Made by a program: the position numbers and the translations under genes. Positions 15,722 to 35,445 of a stretch of 64,000 nucleotides of DNA are shown in pieces. Every line of letters begins with the position of its first letter. The first letter of the stretch is position 1. The DNA comes from Oscillospiraceae bacterium (GTDB taxonomy: Bacteria; Bacillota; Clostridia; Oscillospirales; Ruminococcaceae). The notes under the pieces are model-generated. The model was given only the letters and a program-made list of their open reading frames with translations. It was not told the origin of the DNA and did not search any database. Location: contig JAEEXH010000002.1 in NCBI GenBank assembly GCA_016291435.1, forward strand, positions 32,061-96,060, given 5' to 3'.

Positions 15722-16942
15722 ATGGCTGAAAAAGACGCGGCACTCGCAGCCGCAAAAGCAGAATACGCCCACCGTTCAAAAATCGGCGGGCAGGCGCTCA
15801 TTGAGGGTGTCATGATGAAGGGTGCGTTCCGCGGCGCAATGGCTTGCCGCCTCCCGAACGGCGAGATCGACCTGGAAACATGGGATCTCCCCGCAGAGTG
15901 GACAACCGATCCGAAGACCGGCGAGAAAAAGCTCCTGCGTCCGTGGTACACAAGGATCCCGCTCGTGCGCGGTGTCTACGGCTTCTTCGACTCCGCAGTC
16001 GGCGGCTACAAGTGCATGATGAAATCTGCGGAAAAGCAGATGGACGAGGAAATCGACAGCTTCTGCAAATGGAAAAAGGAGCAGAAGATCGACAAGCTCG
16101 AAGAAGACGAGCAGAAGATAAGATTCGCAGAATGGTACAGAGCGGAGCGGAAGCGTCTCGATGAGGAAAAGGCAAAGGAAGACGCGGATTATGTCCCGCT
16201 CGGCGAGCCGGACGATGACACGATTGCCCGCAGATGGGACTATCTTGTCAAGGCAAGCGAACACTATGACTACGAGGAGCCGGGCAAATTTGAGCAGTGG
16301 CTCGATGACAAGCTGGGCGACAAGATCTTCGGCATCATCATGGGGATTGCTGCCGTGCTGAGCATCGTCATCGCCTTCGGACTGTTCCTCTGGCTCCCGC
16401 GCTTCACGGTCGGGCTCATCAAGCCGCTGACCGAAAGCCGCATCATCCGCTCCTGCGCGGAGGGTCTTGTCAAGATGGCAATTTTCATCGGCTATATGGC
16501 ATTCACCGGCTGCATGAAATCCGTCCGCCGCACCTATGAATATCACGGCGCAGAGCACAAGACCATCGCCTGCTTTGAGGCAGCACTCCCGCTCACCGTC
16601 GAGAATGTGAAGAAGCAGTGCCGGTTCCACCCGCGCTGCGGCACCAGCTTCATCTTCCTTGTGCTGATCATCAGCATCTTCTTCGGCTGCTTCAATCCGT
16701 TTGACATTGTCTGGCAGCGCGTGCTCTTTTCGCTGGCGATTCTGCCGGTCATCATGGGCGTCAGCTATGAGGTCATCCGATACGCAGGCCGCAAGGAAAA
16801 CATCCTGACGAAGATTCTCTCCGCGCCCGGTCTCTGGGTGCAGCGCATCACAACAAGAGAGCCGGATGCCTCACAGATCGAATGCGCGATTGCCGCAATG
16901 ACCCCCTGCATCCCCGAAAATCTGGAAGACGATGAATGGTAA
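15722..16942 (+). CDS. DUF1385 (YqhQ-like) membrane protein
   Basis: The conserved opening KIGGQALIEGVMMKGAFRGA identifies the DUF1385/YqhQ family. The later EYHGAEHKTIACFEA and CRFHPRCGTSFIFLVLIIS are further hallmarks. Membrane segments lie at about residues 207-230, 255-270, 314-330 and 337-355. A charged Lys/Glu-rich insertion (about 102-155) makes it longer (406) than the usual 300-330. The family commonly neighbours prmC and prfA, and prmC is two genes downstream here. The biochemical role is not known. Confidence 0.92.
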   Translation: MAEKDAALAAAKAEYAHRSKIGGQALIEGVMMKGAFRGAMACRLPNGEIDLETWDLPAEWTTDPKTGEKKLLRPWYTRIPLVRGVYGFFDSAVGGYKCMMKSAEKQMDEEIDSFCKWKKEQKIDKLEEDEQKIRFAEWYRAERKRLDEEKAKEDADYVPLGEPDDDTIARRWDYLVKASEHYDYEEPGKFEQWLDDKLGDKIFGIIMGIAAVLSIVIAFGLFLWLPRFTVGLIKPLTESRIIRSCAEGLVKMAIFIGYMAFTGCMKSVRRTYEYHGAEHKTIACFEAALPLTVENVKKQCRFHPRCGTSFIFLVLIISIFFGCFNPFDIVWQRVLFSLAILPVIMGVSYEVIRYAGRKENILTKILSAPGLWVQRITTREPDASQIECAIAAMTPCIPENLEDDEW

Positions 16943-16948
16943 ACACCG

Positions 16949-17461
16949 ATGATCGTGACAGAAAACCGCTATGATCTCGCCTATGCACGCGCTGTTGCAT
17001 GGAATCAGCCGTTTGAGTATCTCTGGATCGGGCTGCTCGCCTACGGTGGATACCGCCTCCTGCACATGCTTTGGACGCTTGCCGCAAACGGGCTGCTCCT
17101 GCGTGCGCTCCGGCTGCCGCAGTTTTATATCGTCCCTGCCATGGTCGCACTGCTTGTTTTGCTTTACATCCTGCGGATGCCCTTTATGAAGCAAAGGCGC
17201 TGGGCAAAGGATGACCCGGTCGCTGTCTGGGCATTTTCGGCGGAGAAATTCACCTGCGACTTCACGCGCCGCGGCTATTCCTCACACAGCGATTACAGCT
17301 ATGCGAATGTCCGCTCAGCAAAGCGCCGCAAGGGATATTTCAAGCTGTCACTGGACTCGCTCGGCGCGGTCATCATCATGGATCACATGTTCCGTGAGGG
17401 CACGCCCGAAGATCTCGAAGCGCTGCTGATCACAGTGCTCGGCAGCAAATACAAATTCTGA
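16949..17461 (+). CDS. Small membrane protein, YcxB-like
   Basis: The 170-residue product has two membrane segments (about 25-50 and 56-75) followed by a soluble domain: EKFTCDFTRRGYSSHSDYSYANVRSAKRRKGYFKLSL. This pattern of two TMs and a short PH-like beta domain with a serine-rich strand is that of YcxB-like proteins. The resemblance is by eye. Two further genes of similar design lie between gyrB and gyrA. It starts 7 nt after the DUF1385 gene with a weak SD, so coupling is likely. Confidence 0.65.
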   Translation: MIVTENRYDLAYARAVAWNQPFEYLWIGLLAYGGYRLLHMLWTLAANGLLLRALRLPQFYIVPAMVALLVLLYILRMPFMKQRRWAKDDPVAVWAFSAEKFTCDFTRRGYSSHSDYSYANVRSAKRRKGYFKLSLDSLGAVIIMDHMFREGTPEDLEALLITVLGSKYKF

Positions 17462-17472
17462 CAGGATACGAT

Positions 17473-18285
17473 ATGAAAATCACAGACCCCGTGCTCCGCA
17501 AAGAGCTCACGGACATTCTGGAGGCAGGCGGCATCGAAGACGCCGCGCTCGAAGCACAGTGGATCGCGGAGGATATCCCGGATGCGGAAAAGGCAAGGGA
17601 GATCGCCCGCCGCCGCGCACAGCATGAGCCGCTGCAATATCTGCTCGGCACATGGGAATTCTACGGGCTGACGCTCAGAGTCGGCAAAGGGGTGCTCATC
17701 CCGCGTGCCGACACGGAAACACTGGTGGATGCGGTGCTCAGCCGTCTGCCGCAGACGCCGAAGCCGGAGATTGCAGATCTCTGCACCGGCAGCGGATGCA
17801 TTGCCCTCGCGCTGAAATCGCAGCGGAGAGACGCAGAGATCATCGGCATCGAGAAAAGCCATGACGCCATGCAGTATGCCGTCATCAATGAAATGCACCT
17901 TTCGCTCGGCGTGCAGTTCTTTCACGGCGATGTGACCGATCCCGCTGTGTACGGGCTGTTCCGGGGGCTGGACGCCGTTGTGAGCAACCCGCCCTATCTC
18001 ACGGCAGAGGACATGCGGCATTTGCAGCCGGAGGTCACATATGAGCCGGAGACGGCACTCGCGGGCGGAGAAGACGGTCTCTGCTTCTACCGCATCATCA
18101 CGGAGAAATGGAAGGGCGCGCTGAAAACAGGCGGGCTTCTCGCATATGAAGCAGGCATCGGGCAGGCAGACGCCGTGGCGGAGATTCTCCGCGCAAACGG
18201 CTTCACCGGCATTGAGCAGATCGCCGACTTAAACGGCATCGCGCGCGTGATACTCGGATTCAAAGACGAACAGTCTATACGATAG
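17473..18285 (+). CDS. prmC: Peptide chain release factor N5-glutamine methyltransferase PrmC
   Basis: PrmC (HemK) methylates the GGQ glutamine of release factors RF1/RF2. The 270-residue protein has the N-terminal helical domain ([20 protein letters not shown]), [14 protein letters not shown], a SAM-binding [17 protein letters not shown] and the catalytic VSNPPYL. It is 12 nt from the YcxB-like gene and 18 nt before recA. The usual partner prfA is not in this window. Confidence 0.96.
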
Positions 18286-31437: not shown

Positions 31438-32463
31438 ATGACTTATATTCTGGCTGCACTTGCCGTCATCCCGGCAATCATCGTGATGCTTTACATCCGG
31501 GGAATTGACAAAATCGAGAAGGAGCCCTGGAAGCTGCTGTTTTCCATTTTGCTCCTCGGCGCGCTCAGCGTCATCCCGATCATGATCGCGGAGCTGATTG
31601 TCGATATCCCCATCAGCATTTTCCCGGAGGGCTCGCTGATTCACGGCTTCTTGCAGGCGTTTGTCTGCGCGGCATTCGTGGAGGAGAGCTTCAAGATGAT
31701 GGTGCTCTGGCTGCGCACATGGAAGCACAAGGAATTCAACTACGTCTTCGACGGCGTGGTCTATGCGGTCTTTGCCTCGATGGGCTTTGCACTTGTGGAG
31801 AATATCCTCTATGTGTTCCAGATGGGCATTACCACGGGCATCCTGCGCGCCGTGACATCCATTCCGGGGCATATGATCTTCGGCGTCTTCATGGGCATGT
31901 ATTACGGCCTTGCAAAGCGGGAAGCGCTCCTCAGAAATGAAAGCGGCAGAAAGAGATATATGATTCTCACATGGCTTGTGCCCGTCATGCTGCACGGCAT
32001 CTATGATTTCTGCCTGATGGTGAACAGCTGGGTGATGCTGCTCATCGGCATTGTCTATTATATCGTGCTGGTGATCTACGCTTTCCGCAAGCTCTCGCGC
32101 ATCCGCAAGGAGGACGCACCGCTCCCGCAGGAAACACCCGTGCCCCCCTATCCGCCGTATCCGGGATACCCGCAGAATCCGGTGTATCCGCAGAATCCGG
32201 CATATCCCCAGAATCCGACATATCCGCAGAATCCGGGATACCCCCAGAATCCGGTGTATCCGCAGAATCCGGCATATCCCCAGAACCCGACATATCCCCA
32301 GAATCCGGCATATCCCCAGAACCCGGTGTATCCGCAGAATCCTGTCACCCCCCAGAGCCCGGTGTACCCGCAGAATCCTGTCACCCCGCAAAGCCCGGCA
32401 TACCCGCAGAATCCGCCTGTCCCGCCCGCACAGGATCCCGCTGACCCCGCAGATCCGCGCTGA
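31438..32463 (+). CDS. PrsW-family intramembrane metalloprotease with a YPQNP repeat tail
   Basis: PrsW proteins are multi-pass membrane proteases that cut anti-sigma factors at site 1 in some Firmicutes. The 341-residue protein has about seven membrane segments in its first 225 residues and the family motifs: AFVEESFK (Glu-Glu), FDGVVYAVFASMGFALVENI, a His in SIPGHMIFGVFMG and HGIYDF. The C-terminal 100 residues are a hydrophilic Pro/Gln/Asn/Tyr repeat: 12 YPQNP and 2 TPQSP units, then DPADPADPR. The repeat tail is not a feature of PrsW as usually described and could be a protein-interaction or wall-facing segment. No sigma/anti-sigma pair is adjacent. Confidence 0.85.
   Translation: MTYILAALAVIPAIIVMLYIRGIDKIEKEPWKLLFSILLLGALSVIPIMIAELIVDIPISIFPEGSLIHGFLQAFVCAAFVEESFKMMVLWLRTWKHKEFNYVFDGVVYAVFASMGFALVENILYVFQMGITTGILRAVTSIPGHMIFGVFMGMYYGLAKREALLRNESGRKRYMILTWLVPVMLHGIYDFCLMVNSWVMLLIGIVYYIVLVIYAFRKLSRIRKEDAPLPQETPVPPYPPYPGYPQNPVYPQNPAYPQNPTYPQNPGYPQNPVYPQNPAYPQNPTYPQNPAYPQNPVYPQNPVTPQSPVYPQNPVTPQSPAYPQNPPVPPAQDPADPADPR
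32167..32415 (+). repeat. In-frame pentapeptide tandem repeat (YPQNP)
   Basis: A 15-18 bp DNA repeat of the form tatccgcagaatccg runs 249 bp inside the PrsW-like gene, with third-position variants. It is prone to slippage and copy-number change, which would alter tail length without breaking frame for 3n changes. Confidence 0.9.
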
Positions 32464-34024: not shown

Positions 34025-34053
34025 TTGACAGATTGCGCATTTCATGATACAAT
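34025..34053 (+). promoter_or_regulatory. thyX promoter
   Basis: TTGACA (34025-34030), 17 bp, TACAAT (34048-34053), 39 nt before the ATG. Confidence 0.8.
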
Positions 34054-34092: not shown

Positions 34093-35445
34093 ATGAATAA
34101 AGCACAAGCGAAAATCATCGCATCTTCTACCGCCGGAGAGCTCGTCTGTGCCTCCGCCGGGCGCATCTCCACCACGCAGGGCACCTCGCTCGAAATTCTG
34201 GAGCGCTCGAAGCAAAAGGAAAACAACGGCACGCTGATCGAGAAGGTCGTCGCCTCGGGACATCAGTCGCTCATCGAGCACGCGATGTTCACCGTCGCAT
34301 TCGACAGTGTCTCTGTCTGCGTCGAGGAATTCGTCATCGAATACCGTCTGGCGTCGTTCACTGTGCAGTCGCGCAGATACGTCGATTTCACAAATATCGG
34401 CTGCTATGTTCCGGAGCTGCCGGAGGCGCTCTCTGCACGCTTCACGGCACACATGGAACACATGTTCGGTGTCTATGCCAAGCTCCTCGAGCTGGAGATT
34501 CCGAAGGAGGACGCCCGCTTTGTGCTGCCCTATTGCTTCCGCAGCAATTTCTACTGCACGCTGAATGCCCGCGAGCTCATGCACATGATCTCCGCAATGC
34601 TCTGGGGACGCGGCGCACAGTTTCCCGAGCTCAGAATGCTCGGTGCATCGCTGAAAAAGCAGTTTGAGGCGTTTTTCCCGCATCTGCTCGATGCCGCCGA
34701 GAAGAAATATCACGCGGACACCGCCCGCTATGCGCTGCCGGATGCCCTGCCCGCGATCCCCGATCCCAAGCCGATGCAGGCAGGCATAAAGCTGCACGAC
34801 ACCACCGCTTCCCCGGAAACGGTCATCACGCAGGCAGCCGCCGCAAACTGGATGATCCTGCCCGATGAGAACCCCGAGCTCCGTGCGGTCGTCTGCGGCG
34901 AACGCCCCCGCGAGCTGGAAATGGTGCAGGCGCGCTTTACCGTGCAGAATCTCTCGCTCGCCGCAGTCACACATCTTGTGCGGCACAGAATGCAGAGCGT
35001 GCTCGTGCCGCAGGTGACAGCAGCCGTTCTGCGCAATACCTATCTGATTCCGCAGAGCATCGCGGAAAACGCCGATGCACTGGCGCTTTACAAGCAGGCG
35101 TTCACAGACAACACCGCCGCGCTCCGCTCGATGCTTGCCGACGGTCTGCCCGTCTCTGCGGTGCAGTATTTTGCGCTGGCAGGCAATCAGCTCGATGTTC
35201 TCTGCATGATGAACGGGCGCGAGCTCCGGCATTTCTTCGCGCTCCGCACATGCAATCGCGCACAGTGGGAGATCCGTGCCGCCGCGGTTGCACTGCTGAT
35301 GCAGCTTCGGAAGCAGTCCCCTGCGCTCTGGTCGCTGATGGGACCGAGCTGCTATGTCACGGGCGTATGTCCCGAGGGGCGGCTCTCCTGCGGAAAAATC
35401 CGCGAGGTGCAGGCATATTTTGCCGAAGACCGCAGCGATGAATAA
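34093..35445 (+). CDS. thyX: FAD-dependent thymidylate synthase, tandem double-domain form
   Basis: ThyX makes dTMP from dUMP using FAD and methylene-tetrahydrofolate. The product is 450 residues, about twice the usual 210-260, and both halves look like ThyX. N-half: GHQSLIEHAMFTVAF, then YRLASFTVQSRRYV, then EDARFVLP...TLNARELMH. C-half: THLVRHRMQS, then VSAVQYFALAGNQLDVL, NGRELRHFFALRTCNRAQWE. The consensus RHRxxSxxxQSxRY is split: the N-half keeps S...QSRRY but has EYR for RHR, and the C-half keeps RHRMQS but lacks QSxRY. This is seen directly; functional complementation between halves is inference. No thyA occurs in the window. It overlaps the next gene by 8 nt. Confidence 0.9.
   Translation: MNKAQAKIIASSTAGELVCASAGRISTTQGTSLEILERSKQKENNGTLIEKVVASGHQSLIEHAMFTVAFDSVSVCVEEFVIEYRLASFTVQSRRYVDFTNIGCYVPELPEALSARFTAHMEHMFGVYAKLLELEIPKEDARFVLPYCFRSNFYCTLNARELMHMISAMLWGRGAQFPELRMLGASLKKQFEAFFPHLLDAAEKKYHADTARYALPDALPAIPDPKPMQAGIKLHDTTASPETVITQAAAANWMILPDENPELRAVVCGERPRELEMVQARFTVQNLSLAAVTHLVRHRMQSVLVPQVTAAVLRNTYLIPQSIAENADALALYKQAFTDNTAALRSMLADGLPVSAVQYFALAGNQLDVLCMMNGRELRHFFALRTCNRAQWEIRAAAVALLMQLRKQSPALWSLMGPSCYVTGVCPEGRLSCGKIREVQAYFAEDRSDE

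Follow-up and report, generated by a model that had tools for sequence, protein, structure and literature searches.

Can a ThyX whose catalytic residues are divided between two fused domains still serve as the thymidylate synthase of its cell, and how would such a protein build its active site? Many bacteria make dTMP through ThyX alone, and the enzyme is a drug target. The question is raised by an open reading frame in the window, by which we mean the whole 64-kb stretch of DNA that was analysed. The frame is uninterrupted on the forward strand, and its product of 450 amino acids contains two ThyX domains in tandem. We propose, at a probability of roughly 0.8, that this protein is an obligate composite ThyX that arose by tandem duplication and fusion and acts as the thymidylate synthase of the cell.

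Layout of the tandem ThyX gene and protein

The two halves of the protein are matched separately by PF02511 (Thy1), with E=2.2e-40 for the N-half and E=3.3e-27 for the C-half, and the whole protein lies above the cut-off for NCBIfam TIGR02170 (thyX). An earlier note on this DNA had described each half as ThyX-like, with EYR in place of RHR and a retained SRRY in the N-half, and with RHR and a lost QSxRY in the C-half; the open reading frame reads as described on all these points. The features are given below in window positions, with counts from the 90-tandem alignment described in the next section and, where named, the numbering of Thermotoga maritima ThyX.

34025-34053 (+): candidate sigma-70-like promoter TTGACA-17-TACAAT, 11/12 consensus matches (0.3 expected in shuffles)
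34093-35445 (+): tandem ThyX gene, 450 amino acids and stop codon
34117-34683 (+): N-terminal ThyX domain, residues 9-197 (Thy1 match, AlphaFold2 model)
34258-34269 (+): GHQS, residues 56-59 of the N-half, with the canonical H53/S55 third-subunit role; H57 90/90, S or T59 90/90
34339-34347 (+): EYR, residues 83-85, the degenerate RHR of the N-half; R78 replaced by E 88/90 or Q 2/90
34369-34380 (+): SRRY, residues 93-96, the dUMP-side S88/R90/Y91 of the N-half; 90/90
34516-34518 (+): R142 of the N-half (T. maritima R147); N-halves 90/90, C-halves 0/90
34684-34791 (+): interdomain linker, residues 198-233, separating the Thy1 matches; variation and gaps across the aligned tandems
34792-35322 (+): C-terminal ThyX domain, residues 234-410 (Thy1 match)
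34903-34911 (+): R271-P-R273 of the C-half, in place of H53/S55; R271 88/90, R273 90/90
34981-34989 (+): RHR, residues 297-299, the flavin-side motif of the C-half; 90/90
35011-35022 (+): QVTA, residues 307-310, the lost SxRY of the C-half; in C-halves R90 and Y91 0/90, S88 19/90
35245-35247 (+): R385 of the C-half (T. maritima R174); C-halves 90/90, N-halves 0/90
35341-35394 (+): GPSC...CPEG...CG tail with C420, C426 and C433, invariant in 90/90

The tandem gene is flanked on one side by a class IV aminotransferase gene and on the other by an open reading frame that starts inside its last codons. An Rfam scan of the window returned tRNA only and no other element. Also encoded in the window, at 31438-32463 (+), is a PrsW-family protease whose tail is a long, proline-rich stretch of YPQNPx repeats. 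The three cysteines of the C-terminal tail are joined by C387, likewise present in all 90 C-halves, and the four are a candidate metal site. A comparable cysteine tail is also present in single clostridial ThyX.

Residue partition between the two halves

We aligned 90 N-halves and 90 C-halves with 116 single-domain ThyX and the T. maritima ThyX, whose true numbering is used (a count along the crystal sequence runs 12 higher, apparently from a tag). In the single-domain proteins, R78, R80, S88, R90, R147 and R174 are invariant (116/116), accompanied by H79 in 115 and Y91 in 114. The tandems distribute these residues over their two domains. Only the N-half carries H53, S/T55, H59, S88, R90, Y91 and R147, the last of which we take to belong to the dUMP-side subunit. 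Only the C-half carries R78 (90/90), H79, R174, C176 and A179-W181. Common to both are E58, R80, N163, R165 and E182, and the stretch from E144 to A146 is universal in N-halves and partly retained in C-halves. At position 55, an arginine occupies all C-halves and a serine or threonine all N-halves; H53 and H59, invariant in the N-halves, are missing from nearly all C-halves together with S/T55. The split is therefore broader than the RHR and SxRY motifs, as it also involves H53, S/T55 and R147 on one side and R174 on the other.

The contiguous signature RHRx(7)SxRY is found in neither domain and is complete only across both halves, in 90 of 90 tandems. Taken across the two halves, R78, H79, R80, R174, H53, S/T55, S88, R90, Y91, R147 and R165 are all present. 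Absent from both are C30, R70 (which corresponds to the dUMP ligand R87 of M. tuberculosis) and Q75; position 75 of the C-half is invariably a histidine. The loss of R70 and Q75 counts against a composite reading; T. maritima ThyX itself has an isoleucine at position 70. At the level of sequence, the alignments establish the partition: a duplication, a reciprocal split, and its conservation.

Subunit roles and a proposed composite active site

The active sites of known ThyX enzymes draw on several subunits. In M. tuberculosis ThyX, subunit A contributes RHR 95-97 and R199, subunit B S71 and R190, and subunit C S105, R107, Y108 and R87 (PMC6514825). H53 of a third monomer forms a pair with Y91 (PMC11940539), and in PBCV-1 ThyX, Gln75 and Arg182 are provided by one monomer and Ser88 and Gln89 by the other (PMC3498832). 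When these roles are mapped onto the tandem, the subunit-A residues all fall in the C-half except Q75, the subunit-C residues all fall in the N-half except R70, and the subunit-B residues H53/S55 fall in the N-half. Because the published sites take these residues from three subunits, the halves are complementary by role. As the H53/S55 role is also confined to the N-half, a full site probably consists of one C-half and two N-halves, contributed by two tandem chains. ThyX activity is stated to need homotetramer formation (PMC9931769), so that dimerisation of the tandem is expected.

An ordinary ThyX forms four sites from four identical subunits, each site combining RHR and R174 of one subunit, S88, R90, Y91 and R147 of a second, and H53/S55/R165 of a third. 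For the tandem we postulate the following arrangement. Its C-half would have specialised to the flavin-side set, and the N-half to the dUMP-side and H53/S55 sets. Under 222 symmetry, a C-half would take the A role, two N-halves the B and C roles, and the other C-half the fourth position. Two chains would then assemble into a C2 pseudo-tetramer, in which each live site is built from a single C-half together with N-half elements contributed by both chains. The two remaining sites would be dead, with the E/F/R of the N-half (E or Q for R78) on the flavin side and R271/R273 of the C-half on the opposite side. The residues at N83 and C271 are an E-R pair in 88 tandems and Q-W in two; this pairing fits a contact within the dead site, yet the switch from one pair to the other probably happened only once.

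Most likely, two tandem chains pair into an active pseudo-heterotetramer in which two composite sites are live and the other two sites are dead; its assembly, stoichiometry and activity are what we infer from the conserved residues. The earlier note had suggested that the two halves complement each other as a built-in heterodimer. Complementation between the halves agrees with the reciprocal losses in all 90 tandems and with a genome in which no second ThyX or ThyA was found. A single self-sufficient chain is less probable, as the third role also lies in the N-half only and probably calls for two chains.

Structure and profile comparisons

An AlphaFold2 model of the tandem, computed from 52 diverse sequences, reaches a pLDDT of 93.4 and a pTM of 0.90 (0.77 in an earlier model from 26 close sequences). 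The main strands and helices follow in the same order in both halves. Foldseek comparison of the model with ThyX crystal structures gives E-values down to 4e-9 and TM-scores of up to 0.8 on the target. Against a tandem profile, T. maritima ThyX aligns in two pieces, one to positions 41-167 in the N-half and one to 379-423 in the C-half; seen from the tandem, the ordinary ThyX thus looks like a composite of both halves.

Distribution and history

Scanning 84,980 genomes with N-half patterns yielded 550 encoding loci. The best 80 of these all match over both halves, and the remaining 470 are known by the N-half patterns alone. The best 80 loci belong mostly to Oscillospiraceae and other Clostridia, with further members in Desulfobacteraceae, Desulfobulbaceae and another deltaproteobacterium. 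Related loci number several hundred, in Clostridia and some Desulfobacterota, and the split may be fixed across as many genomes of gut bacteria and anaerobes. The earlier note had put forward a survey of long ThyX in Clostridia; the split is kept in every one of the 90 aligned bacterial tandems.

Of 399 genomes drawn evenly from the phylum, seven besides the source genome contain a full-length tandem, and the sampled related genera of its own family carry a single-domain ThyX or none. This scatter across taxa suggests horizontal spread. In a tree of 103 domains, all N-halves and all C-halves group in a clade of their own (support 100 and 99, respectively), with matching subclades, which indicates a single fusion within this set, after which the halves were passed on as a unit. 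A single ThyX of 380 amino acids (L181:739-1881 (+), genome G297) carries an insertion of about 140 residues directly after SxRY, in an active-site loop, and several ThyX frames of 387-432 amino acids in the phylum draw may resemble it.

Tandem ThyX in large phages

Among viral models, Foldseek found full-length counterparts in the 491-residue ThyX of Microcystis phage LMM01 and in a 461-residue protein. Four phage tandems were identified, in Microcystis phage LMM01, Microcoleus phage My-WqHQDG, Vibrio phage BONAISHI and Tunturiibacter phage Tunturi_5. Their N-halves contain a GHxS-like motif and GQExSTR(Y/F) and lack RHR; their C-halves contain RHR and an LR motif and lack SxRY. The long ThyX of these cyanophages and jumbo phages therefore shares its layout and split polarity with the bacterial tandem, although the two are only about 15% identical; the profiles align over 391 columns with an hhalign probability of 97.4% and an E-value of 1e-11, at 14% identity. 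A tree joining phage and bacterial halves has long branches and is compatible with one or two origins. In either case, a polarity shared by proteins this far apart lends strong support to a functional split. The split may even have arisen at least twice, in bacteria and in large phages, with the dead sites kept for a new role, such as regulator binding or a dimer lock, and not as mere relics, but we regard this as unlikely.

IMG/VR viral contigs gave matches of single-domain length only. An unannotated and unverified record from human faeces (L267, MT835736.1, 'Bacteriophage sp.') encodes a full clostridial-type tandem ThyX at 16440-17813 together with a dTMP kinase; it represents either a phage-borne copy or bacterial contamination.

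Genome content

The source genome is a 3.16-Mb metagenome-assembled genome (MAG) of a gut bacterium, with 93% completeness. Besides the tandem, no second Thy1 gene was found in it, and neither ThyA nor thymidine kinase was detected, an absence that is never certain at about 93% completeness. A second, normal thyX or thyA in the genome, which would have spoken against the earlier note, was looked for within these bounds and did not appear. The source genome also gave no Thymidylate_kin (PF02223) match, while 13 of 14 control genomes were matched; its dTMP kinase may lie on a missing contig or be divergent.

The same tandem recurs in 27 of 30 sampled species of the genus (the other 26 copies at 58-72% identity to that in the window), so that a fusion by chance or misassembly is rejected. 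ThyA is found in none of the 30 genus genomes, with the reservation that absence from MAGs is never certain, and thymidine kinase exceeds its cut-off in two. DHFR is required by ThyA and not by ThyX. It occurs in one of the 30, G015 (L270), a genome of 96% completeness in which neither ThyX nor ThyA was found; ThyA may be absent from this assembly or divergent.

Beyond the genus, ThyA is likewise absent from eight divergent tandem-bearing genomes. Among 15 tandem genomes checked for Thy1 genes, these eight included, the tandem is the only one in 13. The other two contain further Thy1 genes. Of G459 and G456, one has two tandem ThyX genes and a fragment, and the other an extra Thy1 about 3 kb from the tandem. 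A divergent ThyX-like protein with MRHE for RHR (L046, G027:C28:38820-39389, open frame of 259 amino acids) shares a genome with a tandem and is possibly mobile or repurposed.

A dTMP kinase gene adjoins the tandem at 16 of the 55 loci from outside the genus, which points to a role in dTMP synthesis. The unverified record L267 adds one more to these 16. Such neighbours include the following, among others:

L104:1277-1939 (-): dTMP kinase gene
L111:1280-1951 (-): dTMP kinase gene
L129:1205-1891 (-): dTMP kinase gene
L120:3957-4667 (+): dTMP kinase gene
L267:15618-16292 (-): dTMP kinase gene

Seven of eight scanned neighbour kinases match NF005923 and TIGR00041 below the cut-offs only. Two deep-branching tandems have as neighbours genes for a mini-ribonuclease III and an rlmB-type methyltransferase.

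Alternative interpretations

A pseudogene or an auxotrophic host is weakened as an explanation by residue conservation and genome content. The same observations bear on the view that the tandem is degenerate or repurposed and no longer a thymidylate synthase, the cell depending on thymidine uptake or an unseen ThyA. Either half alone does lack essential residues, and ThyX can be non-essential, as illustrated by 3fnn and 3ge9, structures of a C. glutamicum ThyX that is described as atypical and unneeded for thymidylate biosynthesis. However, the losses are complementary, not random, and invariant in 90 of 90 tandems; ThyA is missing from all 30 plus 8 genomes, thymidine kinase is nearly absent, and dTMP kinase genes are neighbours. 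We consider such a loss of function very improbable. A closer competitor keeps the composite enzyme and changes its geometry: the C-half of the other chain would fill the third role, R271/R273 would bind the FAD phosphates in place of S55, and a live site would comprise two C-halves and one N-half. The conservation of R273, E276, N374 and R376 in the C-half would suit this arrangement, as would the presence of N163 and R165 in both halves. It is nevertheless doubtful, as every N-half retains the canonical H53, S/T55 and H59, which nearly all C-halves lack, and the described partner residues H53 and Y91 (PMC11940539) both reside in the N-half.

A further objection concerns novelty and not mechanism. 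Chlamydial ThyX is about 530 amino acids long, about double the usual length. It is conceivable, though we lean against it, that this E. coli-complementing enzyme is also such a tandem and only the residue bookkeeping presented here is new; the activity of a split ThyX would then already have been shown. The C. trachomatis thyX has served as a positive control for complementation (PMC9931769), and a duplicated ThyX was noted in Chloroflexi in 2009 and left uncharacterised (Valas and Bourne 2009, PMC3224940). On the other side, our literature search, mostly of non-subscription sources, found no paper describing a split ThyX active site, and on tandem ThyX only that 2009 report, whose passages on the duplication give no residue analysis.

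Relation to known enzymes and significance

The obligate composite ThyX that we favour resembles the homotetrameric ThyX of T. maritima (TM0449), M. tuberculosis, H. pylori and PBCV-1 in fold, family (PF02511) and overall set of conserved residues. It differs in that two specialised domains are fused and most site elements occur in one half only, and in that two sites are predicted per four domains instead of four. In function, the nearest parallel is offered by the monomeric herpesvirus dUTPase (PMC8961515), an oligomeric nucleotide enzyme that was duplicated, with motif III moved to the N-terminal end and a single composite site remaining. The tandem likewise combines internal duplication with reciprocal motif loss, as seen in the domain scan and the residue partition. 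The fold of the dUTPase is unrelated, however, and its path led from trimer to monomer, whereas the tandem ThyX probably still needs dimerisation. Domain matches and alignments give good support to the view that the tandem is a variant of a known enzyme family not described before in the literature that we found.

As a natural separation-of-function tool, the split tandem would allow flavin-side or dUMP/folate-side mutations to be confined to one half. A homotetramer never permits such one-sided mutation, and the predicted number of sites falls from four to two per four domains. The tandem would provide a clean example of how duplication and reciprocal loss turn a homo-oligomer into a pseudo-hetero-oligomer, here one whose two halves have long been co-inherited.
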